Source: Mermis nigrescens (lineage: Eukaryota; Nematoda; Enoplea; Mermithida; Mermithidae). Taken from it: a stretch of DNA of 64,000 nucleotides. The translations under genes were made by a program, and so were the position numbers. Below the pieces are notes generated by a model that ran no database searches, was not told where the DNA came from, and saw only the letters and a list, made by a program, of their open reading frames with translations. Positions 1 through 9,480 of this stretch are shown piece by piece. The DNA lies in NCBI GenBank assembly GCA_036768485.1, contig JAVLUZ010000731.1, positions 164,001 to 228,000 on the forward strand. Reading direction: 5' to 3'. Position 1 is the first letter of the stretch. Each line of letters opens with the position of its first letter.

Positions 1-506
1 TTTTCATCTTTGAACATTTTTGAACGCTTTTTGAATGATTCACTATCTTTTGTGTCGACTTTACTGCCCCCGTCATGAAAGTACAGGGATGACTGTAATT
101 GTGAATGTTTTGCATCATATCCATAATTTAGCTCCGTTTCAAAATAAGATCTGTAAGCATATTTATCAGAGCTGTCAAAAACTAATTGTCCGCCTAAAAA
201 GCATTTTACTTGCTTGAAAAAAGTTTTACCTATAAGATTGATGGGAGCATAGTCAGGTAAAGCTGCGCCTACTGCAACCGTTGGTTTTTTAATTCTTAAT
301 AGCATATAAATGTGGTTTTTACTCAGTTGTAGGTAATGCGGGTCAGGCGGAATTCTGAACTCATACGGTCCCTCATTAGTAATAGGATGCGTTGGCTGGA
401 TTTCATGCCAGAAGCCTTGCTTTATCACCACCTGGGTAGGTGGAACTGTAAAAAGGTCAAGTTCGCTTTTTGTGCTTGGAATTGATTTTACGTCTATGAG
501 AGCCAT
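1..506 (-). CDS. Polinton/adintovirus-type major capsid protein, N-terminal 168 aa (cut by window edge)
   Basis: An open frame without stops runs from the ATG at 506 off the left edge of the window. The visible protein starts with a short leader, then LDLFTVPPTQ (about residues 16-25), a run of beta-strand-like segments, and YRSYFETELNYG (about 118-129). These match my memory of the F54H12.2-like family, regarded as the double-jelly-roll major capsid protein of Polintons. It would form the icosahedral shell. The start is chosen because a TATAAATAC box lies 31 bp upstream (537-544), inside the preceding ORF, whose last 50 bases this gene overlaps. No lesions are seen in the visible third. The family call rests on motif memory, not a search. 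Confidence 0.8.
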   Translation of the reverse strand, partial: MALIDVKSIPSTKSELDLFTVPPTQVVIKQGFWHEIQPTHPITNEGPYEFRIPPDPHYLQLSKNHIYMLLRIKKPTVAVGAALPDYAPINLIGKTFFKQVKCFLGGQLVFDSSDKYAYRSYFETELNYGYDAKHSQLQSSLYFHDGGSKVDTKDSESFKKRSKMFKDE

Positions 507-897
507 TTTTATTATAAAAAGCATCATTTACACTAGTATTTATAGACTTTGAGCGATAACCAAGACCTTCCCCTTGCTGCTGAAGGGCTTTAGAGGCCTC
601 ATCAAAAAGCTGAGCAGCTTCTCGTTTTGAGTGTTCTTTAGTTGATTGAAAGAGGGGCTTTCCATGAACCACATCGGACGCTATATTTGCACCTGCCACT
701 AAAGCATGTTTTCCTACTTGCTTACCAATAGATTGCAAAACAGGAACAGCCATTCTGAAAAGTGAACGGAAAAAACTACCAAGACCAACCCCCCACTGAT
801 ATGGAATTCCCCTAAACCCCTCCAACCCATAGCCCGCCTGCCCAGTGTAATACTGCAGCCAAAGATTGTAATCGTCTGGGTGAAATTGAACATGCAT
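457..897 (-). CDS. Glycine-rich, basic minor-virion-like protein of Polinton type
   Basis: This 146-aa protein has a Tyr/Gly-rich N-terminus (GYGLEGFRGIPYQWGVGLG), a hydrophobic middle with FFRSLFRMAVPVL, and a strongly basic C-terminus (HRRKINSKHKKRT). The layout recurs in Polinton and adintovirus gene sets between the capsid gene and other late genes and resembles adenovirus-type minor or core proteins; the exact role is unknown. The frame is open from 954, but the ATG at 897 is preferred because a TATAAATAC box at 929-936 sits 32 bp upstream and would lie inside a longer ORF. The box overlaps the stop codon of the upstream gene. The 3' end overlaps the capsid gene start. The gene is intact. 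Confidence 0.7.
   Translation of the reverse strand: MHVQFHPDDYNLWLQYYTGQAGYGLEGFRGIPYQWGVGLGSFFRSLFRMAVPVLQSIGKQVGKHALVAGANIASDVVHGKPLFQSTKEHSKREAAQLFDEASKALQQQGEGLGYRSKSINTSVNDAFYNKNGSHRRKINSKHKKRT
537..544 (-). promoter_or_regulatory. TATA element of the capsid gene
   Basis: AAAGTCTATAAATAC on the minus strand, 31 bp before the capsid ATG at 506 and inside the preceding ORF. Confidence 0.65.
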
Positions 898-928
898 TTT
901 TGTAATTTTATTCCTATTTAATAATGAG

Positions 929-936
929 TATTTATA
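929..936 (-). promoter_or_regulatory. TATA element of the glycine-rich virion gene
   Basis: AAAGTCTATAAATAC on the minus strand, 32 bp before the ATG at 897. It overlaps the stop codon of the upstream gene and helps decide the start. Confidence 0.65.
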
Positions 937-1501
937 GACTTTCTTCCCAATCAAAATCTACATTAGTTCGCGCTGCTGTAAAAATTTGCCTTCCCTGTTT
1001 ATTAGCAATGCTTTCAATTGGAACATTTGTTCGATTAAGTGCTTTTAGTAATTCTATTGTACCAGGATGTTTGCTTATGTTTTTTCGCTCACGTGCCAAA
1101 TCGTGTAGTATATCTGTGATGTTTGAACCACGAATTTTTTGACCATGTATAACAAGCTCGCCATTAGGGTCGATTTCAATACTAGGATTGCTGCGAATAT
1201 AATGTAAAAGCATTTTAGCCTTTTGATAGTTCGATTTTGGAACATCTGCAAGGATTTCCTCATCATTGTCATTTTTGCTGTCTATGATGTTTACCTTATA
1301 TGGTTGCTTTTTCTTTTCCTGCAATCGCATAAATCTGCCAATTAGTTGATTATATTTTATGAGCTTTACATCTTGTGGTACATTCTTTCCATTCAAAATT
1401 TTTTGCATTTCTCTGTCTAAGGAGCCAAGCAGGGTGTCAACAGGCTTTGTATGTTCAGTTAATTCACTAGGTATTAAAATTATCTTTTCAGTGTGCTTCA
1501 T
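932..1501 (-). CDS. Conserved Polinton protein of unknown function
   Basis: The 189-aa soluble protein is rich in charged residues. A predicted helical N-terminal half (MQKILNGKNVPQDVKLIKYN) is followed by a pattern LLHYIRSNPSIEIDPNGELV then IRGSNITDILHDLAR (about residues 122-137) and a segment ending NVPIESIAN. I recognise this arrangement as a recurring uncharacterised protein of invertebrate Polintons, but no function is established that I know of. Its ATG overlaps the stop of the upstream gene by 4 bases, and no TATAAATA box lies within 40 bp, so it may be expressed from the upstream transcript. No stops or frameshifts interrupt it. Confidence 0.65.
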   Translation of the reverse strand: MKHTEKIILIPSELTEHTKPVDTLLGSLDREMQKILNGKNVPQDVKLIKYNQLIGRFMRLQEKKKQPYKVNIIDSKNDNDEEILADVPKSNYQKAKMLLHYIRSNPSIEIDPNGELVIHGQKIRGSNITDILHDLARERKNISKHPGTIELLKALNRTNVPIESIANKQGRQIFTAARTNVDFDWEESL

Positions 1502-1848
1502 TTTTTACCAACTATTGCATCAGCTAATAGACTGCCAACAATTGAAAGTATGGGTGTGAGTAATAAAGGAAGAAAACCACCATTTTGTAATATAATGTTT
1601 TTTCTTTGTTTTGTTGTTGCCTGCTTATTATTTGCCAAATATCTAATTTGATTCTGATACCTTCGAAGTGTATTGATTTCCTTCTCAGAGAATGGAATAT
1701 TACCGTTTAAAAAGTTGTGAGCACAATCACATATGCAGAGAATCTGGTCTTTGCTAGCAGTATTTATAAGCGCATTTCTCTGAGGTTTTTTCGCATTACT
1801 TAGTACGTGTAAACACGTTATGTTCTGTTTTAGTCGTTTTGGAGCCAT
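1498..1848 (-). CDS. Small basic protein with hydrophobic C-terminal segment, probable virion component
   Basis: A 116-aa protein. The N-terminus is basic (MAPKRLKQN), the middle contains paired cysteines (ILCICDCAHNFLNGNIPFSE, about residues 36-55), and the C-terminus is glycine-led and hydrophobic (GGFLPLLLTPILSIVGSLLA, about 89-108) ending in GKK. The same layout recurs in Polinton and adintovirus-like clusters, usually unannotated. A membrane-active role at entry, like adenovirus pVI, is only a guess. The ATG at 1848 has a TATAAATAC box 30 bp upstream (1878-1885) placed in the 3' end of the ATPase gene. The gene is intact and overlaps the next ORF by 4 bases. Confidence 0.6.
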   Translation of the reverse strand: MAPKRLKQNITCLHVLSNAKKPQRNALINTASKDQILCICDCAHNFLNGNIPFSEKEINTLRRYQNQIRYLANNKQATTKQRKNIILQNGGFLPLLLTPILSIVGSLLADAIVGKK

Positions 1849-1857
1849 CTTACATTT

Positions 1858-2496
1858 TTATTTAATATTTCTATCGGTATTTATAGGCTTTGGTACATAA
1901 ATAGTAGGATGCTTATTGAAAATATCCGCTTTTAACCTATAAGTGTCCAAAATATTTTGAGTTAGATCAATGAAAAGATAACCGTGAGGTTTACAAGTTG
2001 CATCTGAATAAGCTTCTAGAAAATATTTCTGATTGTTAGGATAAAGCTGTCTAGATAAAACTTGTGCCTGTAATTGATTGGCAGGATTTTTAAACAAAAC
2101 TATGTAATCAGAATTTATGCGAGAAGTGCGTAGTCCATCAAAAAATAGGTTTTGCACAATGTGAACCACACTAACGTTCCAGTGATGACAACCTCGTGTG
2201 AATAGTTGTATAATTTGTGCATTTCCTTTGCTTTCCTGCATAAGATCATCAAGTATAAGTAACTGGGGTGTTGGGCTGGCCTCCTTAAGCCTGCTAAAGT
2301 CAGGTAATCCAGTGATAAATGAGACATTTTTAAGCTTCTTATATAATGGTTGATCTTCAGTAAAGCACCACCGGATCTTTGTGATTTTTGAGTCAATTAT
2401 TGTTTCACGGTTTTCTATAAGTTTTTTCACAAATGTTGTTTTACCTGATTTTGTTGGACCAGAAACAATGCATGTAAATGGATGTTCTAGAATCAT
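1858..2496 (-). CDS. FtsK/HerA-superfamily genome-packaging ATPase of Polinton type
   Basis: This 212-aa ATPase is expected to power packaging of viral DNA into the capsid. Visible motifs are the Walker A P-loop GPTKSGKT (residues 13-20), a Walker B LLILDDL (79-85), and a downstream NSDYIVLFKNP segment typical of A32-like packaging ATPases of Polintons, adintoviruses and large DNA viruses. The length is usual for this compact family. The ORF is uninterrupted. It starts 11 bp after the integrase stop, with no TATA box in the 25-40 bp window; the nearest TATAAATAC (2594-2601) is 98 bp upstream inside the integrase. Strand and order are those of a late virion gene cluster. Confidence 0.85.
   Translation of the reverse strand: MILEHPFTCIVSGPTKSGKTTFVKKLIENRETIIDSKITKIRWCFTEDQPLYKKLKNVSFITGLPDFSRLKEASPTPQLLILDDLMQESKGNAQIIQLFTRGCHHWNVSVVHIVQNLFFDGLRTSRINSDYIVLFKNPANQLQAQVLSRQLYPNNQKYFLEAYSDATCKPHGYLFIDLTQNILDTYRLKADIFNKHPTIYVPKPINTDRNIK
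1878..1885 (-). promoter_or_regulatory. TATA element of the 116-aa protein gene
   Basis: AAAGCCTATAAATAC on the minus strand, 30 bp before the ATG at 1848, located in the last codons of the ATPase gene. Confidence 0.6.
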
Positions 2497-2507
2497 TTTG
2501 GCTGCTC

Positions 2508-3546
2508 TTAAAACTTAAATTCTCTCTTTGTTAACTCTGTGTCAAGCTTTTTTGGCCAATTTTTAAATTTTACTTTGTATGTCCCTTTACCAGTATTTAT
2601 AGCTTTTGCGACTTGCTTATGCATTTCAGCCCCTGGTTCAGCTACTTGGAGCTCCTTTCTATAAAACGCACCAATGATTGGTTCTCCCATCAAATCTTCC
2701 AACTTGTATGTTTTAGGACAACTGTCTGACACCTCTTTAATACGAAACAGCTCATCAGTATATGTGTGCTTGCTTGCTTTTGCAAAACCGCTTTTGAGGG
2801 AAGTTATTCTCACAAGTTGTCCAATAGGAAGTGTTGCTTCTGGTTTACACATTTTTCTATTTTTTAGCATAAATGCTAATAATTCTCCTGTATTTTCAGA
2901 ATTTACATCATTTGGGGCTGTATTGTTAAGGCTACTATGAGGCGTGTTATTATAGCTCTCAATGATGCTTTTATATACCTTTGTCCAATTTTCATTTGAA
3001 TAGTATGTCATGTATCACATGAGCTTGTCACGGAATGTTCTATGAAATCGCTCCACAAAATTAGCCTTAATCTTGGGACTACTTGTCAATATATGCTTGA
3101 TTTTGTATGACTTGAGCAATCTATTAAATTCCCCTTTAAATTCATTACCATGATCATTTCGCACTGCCTGAGGGATGTTAAGGGGCAATATTTTTTCAAA
3201 AGCTTGTGATGAGGTTTTTGCACTTTTATTAGTCATTGCCTGTCCATAAGCTTTACGCGAAAAAACATCAATAGCCATCAATATGTATCGATTTTTATAA
3301 TTTTTATTCCTAAATTCTTTAAGATCACAGAAGATCTACATCCCACAGAAGATTAGGACCTGAAACTATAAATGCCCGCCTAGGAAATCGCTTCCTCACT
3401 GGTTTATGCAATTGATAAGTAAACTGTTTAGACAAAAGTTCTTTTACTCGCTTATTTGATGCTTTGCTAACTTTTTGCAGTTTATTGATACCTGCAAATG
3501 CGCCCGGCTTGCCCACCTCAGTCCACTGTATCTTTAATGGTTCCAT
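2508..3546 (-). pseudogene. Polinton retroviral-type (rve, DDE) integrase, two lesions
   Basis: About 345 codons encode a retrovirus-like integrase that would insert the element. The catalytic pattern is visible: Asp in WDVDL, Asp in RNDHGNEF and Glu in ANFVERFHRT, with 33 residues between the last two. The C-terminal region has an SH3-like stretch (LVRITSLKSG) and YKLEDLMGEPIIGAFYRKEL, typical of Polinton integrases; no chromodomain is evident. Two breaks are present: a 1-base frameshift near 3325-3335, next to a duplicated GATCTT, and an in-frame TGA at 3015-3017 after the Glu motif. The ATG at 3546 has an AATAAATAC box 33 bp upstream in a promoter shared with the divergent TBP gene. Confidence 0.85.
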
Positions 3547-3548
3547 CG

Positions 3549-3592
3549 TTTATAAATATAGACAAAGAAGAGTTTAAAGTATTTATTAAAAA
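3549..3592. promoter_or_regulatory. Compact divergent promoter between integrase and TBP genes
   Basis: Only 46 bp separate the two divergent start codons. Reading right, TATAAATA at 3551-3558 lies 35 bp before the TBP ATG. Reading left, AATAAATAC at 3579-3587 lies 33 bp before the integrase ATG. Both match the core of the TATA element found before the other viral genes. Confidence 0.6.
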
Positions 3593-4033
3593 ATGGTTAC
3601 CATACAAAATATTGTGTTGACTACATGCCTACCAAATACAGCGCAGTATAATCGGCAGAAATTTCCAGGCATCATATTTCGATTACCCCAGGCTACACTG
3701 CTGATTTTCAGGTCGGGTAAAATTGTATGTCTTGGAGCAAAAACTATAAAAGATGGTGAAAATGTGATAATGTTGGAAATAACGCCTCAGCTGTTTGTCG
3801 GCTCTGCTAATTTAGGATTTCGCATTAATCTTTGCAAATTTTTTGAGCTAGTGAAAAGAAAATGCATGTATGAAGTAGAATTATTCCCTGGTTTAGTGTA
3901 CAAATTTCAAAATGTGACATTTTTGCTCTTTACAAGCGGAAAAATGATTCTCACTGGTGCAAAAAGAGTGAATGATTTGCATATAGCATATAAAATAGTT
4001 TCAACAATGCTCGAGCAATGCCAAATTAAATAG
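3593..4033 (+). CDS. Virus-encoded TATA-binding protein (TBP) homologue
   Basis: A 146-aa protein with two TBP-type repeats. Repeat 1 has KFPGIIFRL (residues 23-31) and LLIFRSGKIVCLGAK (36-50); repeat 2 has YEVELFPGLVYKF (93-105) and LLFTSGKMILTGAK (111-124). These are the DNA-facing strands of the TBP saddle. The four phenylalanines that intercalate at the TATA box in cellular TBP are all present (Phe24, Phe39, Phe98, Phe113). The protein is shorter than the ~180-aa cellular core: helix 1 of repeat 1 and helix 2 before repeat 2 look reduced. It has no introns or lesions, sits divergent from the integrase, and carries its own TATAAATA box. The likely role is recruiting transcription machinery to viral promoters; that is inference. 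Confidence 0.85.
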   Translation: MVTIQNIVLTTCLPNTAQYNRQKFPGIIFRLPQATLLIFRSGKIVCLGAKTIKDGENVIMLEITPQLFVGSANLGFRINLCKFFELVKRKCMYEVELFPGLVYKFQNVTFLLFTSGKMILTGAKRVNDLHIAYKIVSTMLEQCQIK

Positions 4034-4035
4034 CA

Positions 4036-4228
4036 AAATTTCCAAACTTTACAAAAAATATTCCAAACTTTACAAAAAATTTTCCAAACTTTACAAAAAA
4101 ATTTTCCAAACTTTACAAAAGTACTATGCTTAAGCATGTAAAATATATTCCAAACTTTACAAAAAATATTCCAAACTTTACAAAAAATATTCCAAACTTT
4201 ACAAAAAATTTTCCAAACTTTACAAATT
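4036..4228. repeat. Tandem repeat, eight copies of a 21-22 bp unit, immediately 3' of the TBP gene
   Basis: The unit CCAAACTTTACAAAAAATATT recurs eight times in two blocks of four, separated by a short segment containing the palindrome ATGCTTAAGCAT. The array begins directly after the TBP stop codon. The unit resembles part of the left arm of the neighbouring palindrome (ATTCCAAACAATGCAAACTA), so it may have arisen from it. Confidence 0.85.
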
Positions 4229-4334
4229 TTTGTGCCCATTTGTCAATGACCGACTCACACCATGGGGAGGTTGGCACAATGGTGAGTCATTTCCAGCTGA
4301 AAAGCTGAAAATTTTATTTTTTGACCATATATAC

Positions 4335-4956
4335 AAAAATTTCTAAATACTGCAAAATTTATACACCTAAACACGTAAAATTTATTCCAAACAATGCAAA
4401 CTATTCTGAAAGCTTTACTCCAAATGCACATGAACTTGTGCCCATTTGACTCATAACACAGGAAGATTGATACAAAAGTGAGGCAGGCATTTTATCGTTA
4501 AAAAAATTAAAACTTTTTCTTAACATAATGTACAAGAAAGATCATTTAAACAAGTATACGCTCGCCCACGAACTCCTTTCGGGAGGTAGCGCTCGCATAC
4601 TACAACATTCATACAGGTATACACCCCAACTGCCACTAAACCGGATCGCGGGGTACAGCTGAGAATGTACCACAGAACCACATACACATCGCCGGCACTT
4701 GCTCCTCACAAGGCACAATATGTACATGGAAAACATCCTGTTTCAACAGGCTGCTCCTTTCTTGTATAATGTGCTGAGAAAAATCTTTATTTTTTTAAGC
4801 TAAAATTAACTCAGTATTGTGTCAATGTTCCTGTAATATGAGTCAAGTGGGCACAAATTCATGTGCATTTGGAGTGAAACTTACAGAATAGTTTGCAATG
4901 TTTGAAATAAATTATACATGTTAAGGCATAGAAAATTTACAGTGTTCAGAAATTTT
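4335..4956. repeat. Large inverted repeat between the convergent TBP and polymerase genes
   Basis: Arms of about 200 bp (4335-4540 and 4757-4956) are roughly 80% complementary by eye, for example ACTCCAAATGCACATGAA in the left arm matches the reverse of the right. They flank a 216-bp loop of higher GC with a small CTCC-TTTC-GGGAG hairpin. The structure separates the 3' ends of two convergent genes. It could be a terminator-like or replication structure, a fold-back insertion, or fused element termini; the sequence alone does not decide. Confidence 0.75.
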
Positions 4957-4972
4957 GTTAAGTTGAAAATTT

Positions 4973-6510
4973 TTATATATCTAATGGGACTGTTGTTATT
5001 CCATCAGATAAAACTTTTCTTTTAACATACAAGTATGGTAGTCCCTGCTTTTCTTGTAAGTATGTCCATATTTGATTATCTGGTTGCATGCGGAAACCAA
5101 TATTTTTTCCGCCTTGTGGTTCCTGATTTTGTAGGACATTGCTGTACTGCTCGAAGCTCAGCTTGTTTACCTTTTTCATTAAGCCTTTACTGCTAGACTT
5201 GATTTTATTTGTTGTCTCATCTACAGCAATTTACGTTGTAGCGGCTAAACAGCACATGGCCGTTCCTCTGAATTCCTCTTTTAGTAAACCGGGTGTTCTC
5301 TTGCTTGCTTTAGATGTTACAAACCAATGTGAGTAAACTTGCTCAAACTCTTGCCTTTTTTCCGGCTTTACTATATCTAACAAATTTTAAGCAGGCAAAG
5401 CTAAATAAATGCTATCTGTGTCAGTCTGCATACATTGATAATCTGACTTGTCAAAGAATTTCAATAATACATCGTAGGAAAATTCTAGCATGCGAATTTT
5501 TGCCCAGTTATATATCGAAAGGCCTACTACGATTGGTAAATCTAAGGTTATTTGCTTTTTACGCATATGTATTTATAACAGTTGTTTGTAATATGCTTAA
5601 TTTTTTTAATGAAAGGACTTAAGTTGTATTCAGCTGCTTTTTCATAGTCAGCAAATGAGACATCTGTGTGTTGTTCCTTGTTAGTGAGTGTCTTTCCGTA
5701 ACCTGTGTTTCCAAGAAGTTTGAATGTATCGGCCAGCATAGCAAGTTCTGGGTCTTCATCCCCTTCTTGCCTATGCTTTGTTACTATATCGCGAAATTTT
5801 TCAAATGGCATTGTTCTATCATACTGTATTACCTCGTGAACTTTATCTAATGTTAGGCCATGATTAACAAGAAATCTTATCATTTCTGTAGATAGCATGA
5901 TATTTTTCCCAAAATAGCTGCTTATTAGATTTTGTCGTGGGTTTTTTAATAAACCCATTTTTTCAGCATATTCTTTCATTAGAGGGCCGATGTCCTCTCG
6001 ACTGATTTCAGCATGCTTTATAATTGGTGGAAAGTCGGCATATAGGTCCTTTAAATGATTAGGGGTTGAAATGTCTACCTTGGCGAAGCCAAAGATGGAT
6101 CCATCAAGTATTGCTTTTGTCATTTCCTTAGTACTTATCCAGTTTTTATAGTAGAAGTGCCTAAGCTTTTGCGTTTTTAAGTATTCCATACGTATTTCAT
6201 GCCATTGTCATTCCCATATAGTGATGAGATTATATCCTAGAGACTTAATGTATGATTCCTTCTCCTTAATCCAGTTTTGTGCCTCCTCCGGATCTATTTC
6301 CTTATTGCGTGCACCTGCTAGGCAGTCATGGCCATGCCAGTAGCAGCCATAAAACTCATATACTGTATTTGTTGCAGCGCAAAACCCATCAGCAGGTAAG
6401 CATCTGGGTCCTACAGTTTTTTCTTTGCCATTTGTGTGTGCAGCTTGCGCTGCGATCGGTTTGAGCCGGCCTCCGAAAAAGTTACTGACGTCGGCTGACG
6501 GAAGCTATTT
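4973..6510 (-). pseudogene. Protein-primed family B DNA polymerase (pPolB) of Polinton type, 5'-truncated and broken
   Basis: The polymerase domain is readable across most of the interval. FFGGR lies near 6470, the motif B region KLLGNTGYGK lies in the block ending at 5548, and the catalytic motif C DTDS lies at 5411-5425 (QTDTDS). The C-terminus ends at 4973. The N-terminal exonuclease and terminal-protein regions are absent: a stop sits just upstream of FFGGR. Further lesions are an in-frame TGA at 6208-6210, a frameshift near 5550-5565, and TAA stops at 5387-5389 and 5231-5233. The enzyme would replicate the element. It is convergent with the TBP gene across the palindrome. Confidence 0.85.
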
Positions 6511-6621
6511 GTTAGCCCCACTGAGACCAGTAACCCTGGAATTTTGACATTTGTAGTCATAGTTTCCAGAAAACTATATATTCCTAAGCTATATATTAAT
6601 AAAATTTGAGATAATTCTGAG

Positions 6622-6806
6622 ATTTATAGACTTTGATATTTATAAACTTTCTAGTATTTATAGACTTTTTGATATTTATAGACTTTTTGATATTTATAGG
6701 CTTTTGATATAGTCGGATGACAATTTTTGACGGAAAATGTTTGTTATTTATAGACTTTGATCGAAGTCGGAATGACAATTTTCAGAAATAATTTTCGATA
6801 TTTATA
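6622..6806 (-). promoter_or_regulatory. Array of seven viral TATA elements
   Basis: The minus-strand motif AAAGTCTATAAATA or a one- to two-base variant occurs at 6622-6628, 6637-6644, 6655-6662, 6673-6680, 6691-6698, 6745-6752 and 6799-6806. The first five are spaced about 15-18 bp, less than two helical turns. All point leftward toward the polymerase remnant, whose first codons are lost. The flanks of each copy extend the similarity beyond the 8-bp core, so this is not simple AT-richness. No ORF is visible in the stretch. Confidence 0.65.
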
Positions 6807-6982
6807 GACTTTGCTATGCTTAAAACTAGTTGCTTTTTGACAAAAACGTGTATTTAATCCGCTTATATGTCCCATTTAAAACATTAAACTCACGGGTTAA
6901 ACCACATATGTGCTGCCATCTTTTTTTGGCACTTTGCCAACGGCATCCGCCTTATAAATCACAATAACTTTTTAGAAATAAC

Positions 6983-7193: not shown

Positions 7194-7370
7194 CTAATAT
7201 GTAGATATCGCTTTTTTTAATCGTTTTCTAATATACTTTGAGAAGCTCAAAATAGCATTCTCATCGAATTCCAGTAATGTTTGCTTATATTGCTCGCTTA
7301 TTTTCTGCCAAAAATAATCTTTAATAGCATCATCAGACAAATAAGTGTATTGTAACAAACGATGCAACAT
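7194..7370 (-). CDS. Small unrecognised ORF beside the second Polinton remnant
   Basis: 58 codons from the ATG at 7370. The protein looks like real coding sequence rather than repeat translation: it has mixed composition with aromatic and acidic residues (DYFWQKISEQYKQTLLEFDE) and a basic tail (KYIRKRLKKAI). It lies downstream of the decayed integrase on the same strand, so it is probably a fragment of another gene of that element. I recognise no family. Confidence 0.35.
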   Translation of the reverse strand: MLHRLLQYTYLSDDAIKDYFWQKISEQYKQTLLEFDENAILSFSKYIRKRLKKAISTY

Positions 7371-7419
7371 ATGATTGAAAAAACATCGGCTGATTATTAT
7401 GTTTGATAATTATTTTTTT

Positions 7420-8332
7420 TATGTTTGAGACCCAAGAATCAAACTTTCCAGGGTACCCACGCTAGTCTACTAAATAATCAGTTTTATTGCCTTTCTCACG
7501 CGTTTTCAAAATCTCTTCAATTACATACAAATCGTCAATTTTTGTTTCAATTTTTTGCAATTCAGGCTCATAAAAAATACCTTCGACTTTTTTACCCATT
7601 TGATCTTCTAAAAGATATCAATCCTAAATGCTCTATTCATAATTTCAGTTTCATTTTTAACGGTCACATTAGCTGACAATGTGCCCATTGTACAATGCTT
7701 AGAGTGATTATAATTTTTCATCAAGTCGGGTAATACATCAATATATTTATACAAATTGCTCTTGCTGAAGTACCGCCACACACGTTCTTTAAGCGTGCAA
7801 TTAAAACGTTCAATTATGATAGCTTTTGTTCCGCTCTTAGTGGTAAAAAATCGATAGGTTCAGATTTTAGAAATTTCTGGAACTCCTTGCTTGTAAATTC
7901 GGTCCCTGCATCTGTTTGCAGCTTGTACGGTTTCCAATTAGATGAATTTAAAATGCTTTGAAAACAGTTGGCACATCTTTTGAACTTTTAGATTTCCGAG
8001 GAACAGAGCATGCGTATTTTGAAAAAATGAGTATGCGATTCAAGAGATACTTGAAATTATCATTAAACTTGCTTAAAGACTGCATATCTATAATATCAGC
8101 TTGCCATTGCTTATCAATGCTACATGCTAACACTTTATTTCGAGAATACCGCTTGAGGGCGGGTTAGTGTAAAGTATAGGTGGGCTGCTTTTCTAAGCAT
8201 TCTTTAACGTAGGACCGGTCTATTTTTGGCTTTACTTTTTTATCCCTCTCATAGAGCTGTTCCACGCTACTATACCCCGTTTTAGGGTCGTAATACATTT
8301 GCTTTAACACTTTTTTCACTTTTATTTCATTA
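7420..8332 (-). pseudogene. Second Polinton integrase with C-terminal chromodomain, heavily decayed
   Basis: Pieces in several frames read in order as a Polinton integrase: YYDPKTGYSSVEQLYERDKK near 8300, a catalytic segment QADIIDMQSLSKFNDNFKYL (near 8060-8100), QTDAGTEFTSKEFQKFL near 7900, and near 7480 EILKTREKGNKTDYLV then RGYPGKFDSWV, a chromodomain signature. Multiple stops and frameshifts separate them. The catalytic Glu segment is broken. The sequence differs clearly from the integrase at 2.5-3.5 kb, which lacks a visible chromodomain, so this is a separate, older lineage rather than a duplicate. Confidence 0.75.
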
Positions 8333-8344
8333 TATAACAGTCTA

Positions 8345-8711
8345 CCTATTCATTAACATCAGTAAAATTGCATCAAATGATAATTTATCACTACCTCGAA
8401 TTGTTGTTACTGGAATAGAAAAGCTGGACAGTAGCTCTAAATGGGAGTCTATCAGGAAAGGAGATAACAGCGAATGTACTCTGCAAAAACGGCTAGGTAT
8501 AGATATGATGCACAAAGCTGATCTTAACACTGATAAAGAAAAATACGGTCTTAAAGCTGTTAAGAAAATTAAAAACGTTCTGGTACCCCACTACCAAATT
8601 AAAGTTTACTCGGACAATATTTTGTTTTATGAAAGGCCAAAGGCCATCAAAATAATTAATTTTCGCATATTTAATAATTGCTACACCCTTATGACAAAAT
8701 TCTTTCGTTAA
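8345..8711 (+). pseudogene. Probable N-terminal fragment of a Polinton DNA polymerase
   Basis: An open frame begins about 12 bp from the second integrase, on the opposite strand. It contains RIVVTGIEKLDSSSKW, CTLQKRLGIDMMHKADL and then PHYQIKVYSDNILFYERPKA followed by NNCYTLMTKF. The last part resembles the conserved N-terminal segment of Polinton polymerases (YQI-VY, then NHYNVIT-like). No in-frame ATG precedes residue ~45 and the frame stops at 8711 without any polymerase domain, so this is a truncated relic. The family call is moderate. Confidence 0.45.
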
Positions 8712-8984
8712 CTAACTATAATGGATATCGTGAACACAGTGGCGCTTGTGGAGGTGGCGATTGTGGACCTCAGTGGCGCTTGTGGACTCCCACAGGGACT
8801 GCTACCCGAACACACACACACACACACAAACACACAAACACTGTTAATTTGTTGTTACCCCTTCCCAGCTAGGCTTACTGACAGGTTTGGGCATGTTTAT
8901 TATAATTCATTATCAGTCATAAAACATAAATCGCTATAGGGAACTTTACATCCATCTCTGTCATCGTCATCTGAAAAACCAGTT
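8712..8984. repeat. Short direct repeats and (CA)n microsatellite
   Basis: AGTGGCGCTTGTGGA occurs twice at about 8739-8785, followed by a CA/CAAA microsatellite at about 8811-8842. No gene is seen; the segment marks the end of the viral remnants. Confidence 0.6.
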
Positions 8985-9480
8985 TAATTGGCATACTGTA
9001 GGTTGCGCGCTAAAATTTTGTACATAGTGCAGTTACAATTAATATATCTTACCTAGAAAGTTTGAGCCCGATCTGATCATTGGTTCTTGGATTACAACTA
9101 TATCTGAAAGAGTGTAAACCAAAGTCGGCATACTATAGATTATATGCACATATCAATAAGTGCAACATATGCTCACCCTACTCTAAAAATTTGAGCTAAA
9201 TCCGCCCTAAAGTTCTTGAAATATAGTGCTATATGAGAAAGTGTAAAGTAAATCGGTATACTGTAGACTGCGCACTTAAATCCTGTTCATAGCATGCCTT
9301 GACTATATAATTACATCATATCCAGAAGATTAAAACAAAATCTGACCATTGGTTCTTGAGTTACGTAAAAGTGTAAACTGATGCTGATATACTGTAGGTA
9401 CTACTACCTCCAAAGTTTTGTAATAGTTTGCAAATAGGGTATTCATCCTACCCCTAAAATTTCAGCCCGATTCGACTACT
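8985..9480. repeat. Degenerate tandem repeat, period about 140 bp, 3-4 copies
   Basis: Each copy carries a line like GGCATACTGTAG near its start and GAGCCCGATCTGACCATTGG near its end. Copies start at about 8990, 9128, 9258 and 9388 and differ by many substitutions. No coding potential is seen. Confidence 0.6.

Follow-up and report, generated by a model that had tools for sequence, protein, structure and literature searches.

In the window analysed here, a 64,000-nucleotide stretch of the genome of the nematode Mermis nigrescens (positions 164001-228000 of contig JAVLUZ010000731.1, C696 in our numbering), an element of the Polinton/Maverick type carries its own gene for a TATA-binding protein (TBP), and genes of the same family stand beside Polinton genes at other loci of this genome. 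We consider it rather likely that the protein is a Polinton-encoded initiation factor that would bring host RNA polymerase II to the TATA promoters of the element, a proposal drawn from sequence comparison and modelled structure.

The identity of the gene product is the firmest part of this work. The open reading frame (ORF) at 3593..4033 (+ strand) encodes 146 amino acids (aa) forming two TBP repeats, the first of which lacks 25 aa. Pfam PF00352 (TBP) matched it in two stretches (E 3.2e-34, 117.1 bits, cut-off 22.9), and a phmmer search of the PDB sequences returned TBPs from E 2.6e-22, which bears out the two-repeat TBP of 146 aa proposed in the original prediction, made from the letters alone. 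The four intercalating phenylalanines named there were also recovered: F24, F39, F98 and F113 occupy invariant or nearly invariant columns among 31 aligned TBPs and align with human TBP, and we take them to be the DNA-intercalating residues of known TBPs. The AlphaFold model (pLDDT 90) has the saddle fold; when it was compared with known structures, as had been suggested, all 44 Foldseek matches at E <= 0.001 were TBP chains or TBP fusions. Read on the other strand, the region of the TBP frame is interrupted by many stops, and the 110-aa ORF that overlaps the TBP 3' end there (3907-4239) is mostly translated tandem repeat. As predicted, the gene is divergent from an integrase gene, with an rve piece on the - strand and 46 bp between the two ATGs. 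It is beyond reasonable doubt that this ORF is a TATA-binding protein; the binding and bending of TATA DNA and the recruitment of TFIIB are putative activities.

The ORF had been described as intact, and its frame is open; it is nevertheless 25 aa shorter than its 171-aa relatives, a near one being L013 (the same locus as L003). The difference consists of two gaps of 39 and 36 bp, both in frame and both in repeat 1. The model of a 171-aa relative has helices at 19-25 and 65-78, whereas in that of the window protein the first is absent and the second reduced to 52-59, so that repeat 1 is left with no helix H1 and about half of H2. Because these 25 aa of repeat 1 are missing, the window TBP is probably impaired rather than a mere variant. 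Both gaps are also present in L005, and the second one in L002 and L016, at the same places. By synonymous divergence (dS), the window copy and L002 are nearest to the full-length L003 (dS 0.06 and 0.01), and L005 and L016 to the full-length L007 (dS 0.23 and 0.20); recurrent deletion or exchange between copies would explain the same gaps in copies closer to different full-length ones. The short form is rare, a minority variant and not the family norm: open frames of less than 165 aa were found in 5 of 150 listed relative rows, and most listed relatives have at least 171 aa. The shortening proposed earlier thus fits the window copy and a few others, but not most of the listed relatives.

A search of the genome (524 Mb, 860 contigs) revealed at least about 370 TBP loci besides the spliced host gene. 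The first searches gave at least 292 distinct loci, 260 of them without an internal stop and 32 with a stop in the match, and a further search gave at least 85 more (54 without an internal stop); the counts are lower bounds, as the best 150 of 1666 to 2025 first-look candidates were scored per search. Neighbours were examined for 22 of these loci, namely 19 taken with about 3.5 kb per side, together with the host locus, and L057-L059, added from more distant TBP groups; L001-L008 and L010-L012 served for TBP comparisons only. Polinton genes lay beside TBP in 22 of the 22, in one of them weakly. With the proteins of the window as tblastn queries, Polinton proteins were found in 17 of the 19; of the other two, L031 has an ORF matching DNA_pol_B_2 in Pfam, and L023 has only short integrase fragments and a small protein common to the integrase side of L035. 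Genes for the penton, the ATPase, the protease or the capsid are present in L057-L059, the capsid proteins of L058 and L059 being only 22-27% identical. Contigs C724 and C843 each carry three TBP loci in a stretch of about 5.5 kb, alternating in orientation, which may stem from a single nested insertion that was duplicated.

Three arrangements were recognized. TBP is divergent from the integrase in the window and in L013, L014 and L016 of the same genome, which are the further Polintons with a TBP beside the integrase that the original prediction had proposed to look for. It is divergent from the ATPase in L015, L017-L020 and L036. In the TBP lineage that we label B (A, C and D being the other lineages), a minor protein, a capsid protein of 435 aa, an adenain-like protease (Peptidase_C5), a penton-like protein and then TBP follow one another on one strand. 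Of the 71 capsid genes that share 70% identity or more with that of lineage B, 57 have a listed TBP within 5 kb, downstream and on the same strand, at a mostly near-constant spacing; one of these has a second TBP on the other strand. The TBPs counted here are those among the matches listed, which makes the figures lower bounds, and at least L036 was missed: of two capsid loci without a listed TBP that were followed, this one has a TBP beside the ATPase.

A processed copy of the host TBP, which the original prediction had named as one of two findings that would overturn it, was rejected. The host has a TBP gene of its own elsewhere, on contig C73, and this gene is spliced; the two exons found show 79% and 70% identity to a canonical TBP, and its best PDB match is human TBP (309 bits vs 282 for the yeast protein). 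The element TBPs are at most 46% identical to that canonical TBP, occupy fixed places in the elements and do not group with the host protein in trees. More generally, it could be argued that these ORFs belong to the host, as retrocopies or as a domesticated TBP family, and that Polintons just happen to be nearby, since the genome has a real TBP gene and TBP-related factors exist in animals. The splicing and the much higher identity of the host gene, the trees and the near-fixed spacing to capsid genes largely refute this explanation, which we regard as hardly tenable.

The element TBP copies evolve under purifying selection. The ratio of nonsynonymous to synonymous divergence (dN/dS; Nei-Gojobori, one row per locus) had a median of 0.19 (range 0.13-0.42) for lineage A, from the 34 of 36 pairs whose dS lay between 0.05 and 3, and of 0.16 (range 0.08-0.36) for lineage B, from 11 usable pairs of 36; recent pairs were closer to neutral (0.19-0.42). 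These medians, together with the 260 of 292 loci without a stop and the presence of TBP in elements whose capsid proteins share so little identity, speak against the gene being a passenger, that is, one or two captured TBP genes without function. The internal stops in the remaining 32 loci, the few copies (the window's included) without parts of repeat 1 and the place of TBP, which varies by lineage (next to the integrase in some, next to the ATPase in others, behind the penton in others still), would be expected of a passenger, but we consider that explanation very improbable.

TATA boxes are enriched at the starts of element genes. The motif TATAAATA, in the context CAAAGTCTATAAATACT, was noticed upstream of these genes via the element repeats, and it occurs 13 times in the element of the window (1-6900) vs 11 times in the other 57.1 kb. 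The box at 3551..3558 (+) stands at -42 from the TBP ATG, in the 46-bp gap shared with the integrase, and this upstream stretch is nearly identical in L013. On the - strand, boxes were found at 537..544, upstream of the capsid gene (GTCTATAAATACT); at 929..936, upstream of the ORF at 457-897; at 1878..1885, upstream of the ORF at 1498-1848; and at 2594..2601, about 105 bp upstream of the ATPase gene, while six more are clustered at 6637..6806, upstream of remnants of a DNA polymerase B (PolB) gene, four of them 18 bp apart. When the region from -65 to -20 was scanned in the window and 23 loci, 36 of 81 unique element gene starts had the exact box, all between -47 and -32; the controls had it in about 2% of cases (294 of 19,200 random stretches and 145 of 6,151 ATGs), and a looser box in 5.8% of random stretches and 7.1% of ATGs. 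In lineage A the exact box precedes the capsid gene (6/6), the ORF starting MHVQF (6/6), a 116-aa ORF (7/7), TBP (6/6) and the penton gene (2/2). Lineage B has the exact box at 6 of 9 TBP starts and the looser one at 8 of 9; its capsid genes and MHVQF-like ORFs lack the exact box (0/5 and 0/6) and have the looser box TATAAAAG in 5/5 and 5/6 cases. Taking lineages A and B together, 12 of 15 unique TBP starts carry the exact box.

These boxes bear on two other readings of the protein. It might target the host, competing for TATA boxes, TFIIB or TBP-associated factors and so damping host transcription or antiviral genes. A role of this kind would suit a protein that has kept the TFIIB-facing motif and the saddle, lacks the long N-terminal region, which we take to be a feature of animal TBPs, and is encoded by many copies, which could yield much protein if expressed. 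The boxes, however, are enriched at the element's own starts, those of TBP among them, which suggests use in cis; as a decoy would not need them, we judge this reading unlikely. Alternatively, TBP might serve replication, packaging or the control of silencing of the element by way of AT-rich repeats, rather than transcription. In favour of this, lineage-A loci and L023 have 21-bp AT-rich repeats next to TBP or to the integrase, and six TATA boxes are clustered upstream of PolB. Such a role leaves unexplained the boxes found at promoter distance from several separate genes, and the repeat unit has no TATAAA; we hold it to be decidedly improbable.

On the reading that we favour, an element-encoded initiation factor, the TBP would bind boxes of the TATAAATA type that lie 30-50 bp upstream of the genes of the element and bend them as ordinary TBP does; its conserved TFIIB-facing stirrup would recruit host TFIIB and RNA polymerase II. 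Lineage A has kept the stirrup motif YExELFPG, and so for the most part has B, and no polymerase gene besides that of DNA polymerase was seen in the element stretches read. Transcription of the element would be freed from the supply of host TBP or from host control, and the capsid, ATPase and TBP genes would be switched on together; since the TBP gene has its own box, feedback would be implied. DNA binding, polymerase recruitment and the timing of expression are predicted from sequence features. The probe sequences CTATAAATACT and TATAAAAGA were named for a comparison of element and host TBP.

Several observations weigh against this interpretation. The boxes are no proof that the element TBP is used, because TATAAATA suits the host TBP too. 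Two of the 13 boxes in the window (1768 and 5577, - strand) lie inside genes and not at starts; in lineage A the box was found at only 3 of 7 ATPase starts and at none of those of the integrase (0/4), the protease (0/2) or a 189-aa ORF (0/6), in lineage B it was absent from protease (0/7) and penton (0/6) starts, and the single TBP starts of lineages C and D lack it (0/1 each). The copies are related, and neither gene starts nor pairs are independent; most of the other lineage-B pairs are saturated, and one young pair gave a dN/dS of 1.69, resting on one synonymous change. As to linkage, the lists place no TBP near 14 of the 71 lineage-B capsid genes, they place one within 15 kb of just 1 of the 26 capsid genes with 61-62% identity, and at the second capsid locus that was followed, L035 (C529), no TBP was found on the ATPase side. 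Lastly, the window copy itself is without part of repeat 1.

A more elaborate possibility, which we put forward tentatively, is a private promoter system, in which an old, element-owned TBP family, set apart from the cellular TBPs, would have coevolved with lineage-specific boxes; element TBP, working with host RNA polymerase II, would read the promoters of the elements, and these would be partly insulated from control by host TFIID. The boxes would be CTATAAATAC in lineage A, and in lineage B TATAAAAG at the capsid and minor-protein genes and TATAAATA at most TBP genes. The Asn of the IQN motif in the second repeat is replaced by Leu or Met in lineages A and C, unlike in cellular TBPs; this change at the centre of the saddle may alter the TATA preference, and under such a system it would represent altered specificity.

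The ancestry of the element TBPs was addressed with IQ-TREE trees of 81, 94 and 80 rows (support given as bootstrap/SH-like approximate likelihood-ratio test). Five rows with very long branches were dropped before the 94-row tree and seventeen further rows before the 80-row tree; the viral sample consisted of 17 TBPs from 20 IMG/VR loci, nimaviral and named mirusviral TBPs being left out. Lineages A and C grouped together (99/94, 81 rows), as did A, C and D (89/81 with 81 rows, 99/93 with 94) and these three with the TBPs of L057-L059 (99/97, 80 rows). Lineage B grouped with four metagenomic proteins in the 81-row tree (99/94) and with six in the other two (100/99). In the 81-row tree, which contains several very long branches, midpoint rooting placed lineage B and some long rows apart from the rest. 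Both element branches fell on the eukaryotic side (98/88 with 94 rows, 100/98 with 80), and in these two trees the two deep branches, for which the original prediction had proposed a host or a larger virus as donor, joined neither the host and animal TBPs nor the sampled viral ones, standing apart from seven IMG/VR TBPs near the eukaryotic proteins and from those near archaeal TBPs. Forcing all element rows into one clade cost 35 and 34 log-likelihood units, with approximately unbiased test p values of 0.059 and 0.073 (81 and 80 rows), in a test that also forces the metagenomic proteins out of lineage B and is stricter than needed; judged from these trees, a single origin is neither shown nor rejected.

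Because six metagenomic proteins (P0036, P0038, P0039, P0040, P0042 and P0043) join lineage B, the family is probably not confined to this genome. No protein more than 47% identical to the window TBP was present among the 32 matches listed, and none more than 41% identical to the 171-aa relative among the best 120 of 2696. The viral contig collection gave no relative when scanned with the TBP or the ATPase of the window, with the TBP alignment or with two capsid alignments; a general TBP alignment picked out 20 viral loci there, in which tblastn revealed no Polinton genes. A phage collection gave six records, three haloviral TBPs at E 2e-8 and 0.2 and the rest at E 3-9.

The window element is of the Polinton/Maverick type, with the integrase and PolB frames broken in this copy. 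The integrase (rve; 2508..3549, -) consists of three open pieces, 3325-3549, 3015-3335 and 2508-3014; the rve match of the piece 3015-3281 (28 bits, E 2.8e-6) is below the cut-off of 32.6, while the relative L035 exceeds it (45.4 bits) and also has a chromodomain (Chromo, 35.5 bits, cut-off 25.1). Next come a packaging-ATPase-like protein of 212 aa (1858..2496, -; Pox_A32, 24.6 bits, cut-off 22.8), whose counterpart in L058 has an A32-type match of 26.4 bits, and three ORFs that are kept in relatives, of 116 aa (1498..1848, -), of 189 aa (932..1501, -) and the one starting MHVQF (457..897, -), whose assignment as a minor virion protein is a guess from its place. The N-terminal part of the major capsid gene (3..506, -) continues past the left window edge; the left end of the element lies outside the window, where the protease gene would fall. 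The PolB remnants lie in several frames at 4973..6504 (-), with pieces also in L013, L014 and L016; they are named by their place and by a DTDS motif, which we take to mark DNA polymerase B, and the longest of them has no Pfam match. In relatives, Peptidase_C5 (the adenain-type protease) exceeds the cut-off in L028, L021, L058 and L059. In three homologues of the lineage-B capsid a double jelly roll (DJR)-like domain reaches 24-26 bits, just short of the cut-off (27); the lineage-B capsid itself has no Pfam match, and the penton is assigned by place and sequence pattern only. The A32-like ATPase and rve of the window, with the protease and the probable PolB and DJR-like capsid of its relatives, agree with the Polinton-like element originally proposed.

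Directly 3' of TBP, 21-bp AT-rich tandem repeats with the unit CCAAACTTTACAAAA occupy 4035..4226; similar stretches occur beside TBP or the integrase in 12 of 24 compared loci (L013-L020, L023 and L034-L036), which span different element lineages, and they are perhaps an origin, a terminator or an end-linked repeat. They are followed by an inverted repeat (4336..4956) with 147-nt arms that are 84% complementary and then a 49-nt pair at 76%, kept in L013, L014 and L016. A second Polinton remnant, 76-88% identical to the integrase side of L015, lies at 7195-9466. Other small proteins were seen near TBP. One with two CxxC pairs, which measures 107-109 aa beside some TBPs, adjoins TBP or the integrase in L023 (3122-3442, -), L035 (1743-2069, -) and L031 (4106-4380, -); Pfam offers no credible match for it, and our guess is a zinc-ribbon transcription factor. 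F-box proteins occur in L023 (2169-2459, -, and 4497-4787, +, an identical pair in opposite orientation), L031 (1849-2676, -) and L059 (2226-2846, -), assigned by Pfam in the first two loci and by similarity in L059. Proteins that adjoin TBP in L036 (1266-1568, -), L057 (3347-3733, +) and L058 (2312-2674, -) are alike by eye and without a Pfam match. None of six proteins tried had a match in PHROGs.

The elements resemble animal Polintons (adintovirus-like) in their rve integrase with chromodomain, A32-like ATPase and adenain-type protease and in a probable PolB, DJR-like capsid and penton-like protein, and differ from them in adding a TBP gene, which to our knowledge is not part of the Polinton gene set. 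The absence of an established Polinton or adintovirus TBP, assumed in the original prediction, agrees with the full-text literature searched, subscription papers not covered, where no report of one was found: a term search met neither TATA nor TBP in the text of PMC11071308, PMC11071296, PMC8097293 and PMC10120064, and no Polinton or adintovirus TBP in PMC12220804. With cellular TBPs (PF00352) the element proteins share the two-repeat saddle, the four phenylalanines, the YExELFPG stirrup and the SGK loops; unlike them, they have no long N-terminal region, and they are only about 30-47% identical in the comparisons made.

Polintons belong to a size class of 15-20 kb and are viewed as related or ancestral to adenoviruses, virophages and giant viruses. 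The nucleocytoplasmic large DNA viruses (NCLDVs), nimaviruses and mirusviruses, which likewise carry TBP in the viral genome, have far larger genomes, and we know of a core initiation factor carried by a virus only from such much larger viruses. Mavirus and other virophages, which are small DJR viruses whose genes share an upstream motif, are thought to borrow the transcription machinery of a giant virus; unlike them, the Polinton element described here carries its own TBP. NCLDV proteins named TBP or TFIID are present in BFVD, and the 17 IMG/VR TBPs, as viral ones, do not group with those of the elements. TBP occurs in 59% of mirusviruses vs 0% of the Nucleocytoviricota compared (PMC10132985), sporadically in endogenous elements of putative mirusvirus origin (PMC10675990), in nimaviruses as wsv303 (PMC10871703) and in Yellowstone Lake phycodnaviruses (PMC4602308). 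What is new is therefore a Polinton family with an element-owned TBP; the viral TBPs of giant viruses, mirusviruses and nimaviruses were already known.

In summary, Polinton lineages of one animal genome, several of them distant, carry their own TBP. Little is known about the transcription of Polintons, and this gene is a sign that small nuclear viruses may bring a core initiation factor with them. The element TBP would open the time and mode of Polinton expression to direct tests, and the diverged pairs of TBP and TATA box a natural set for the study of promoter specificity.
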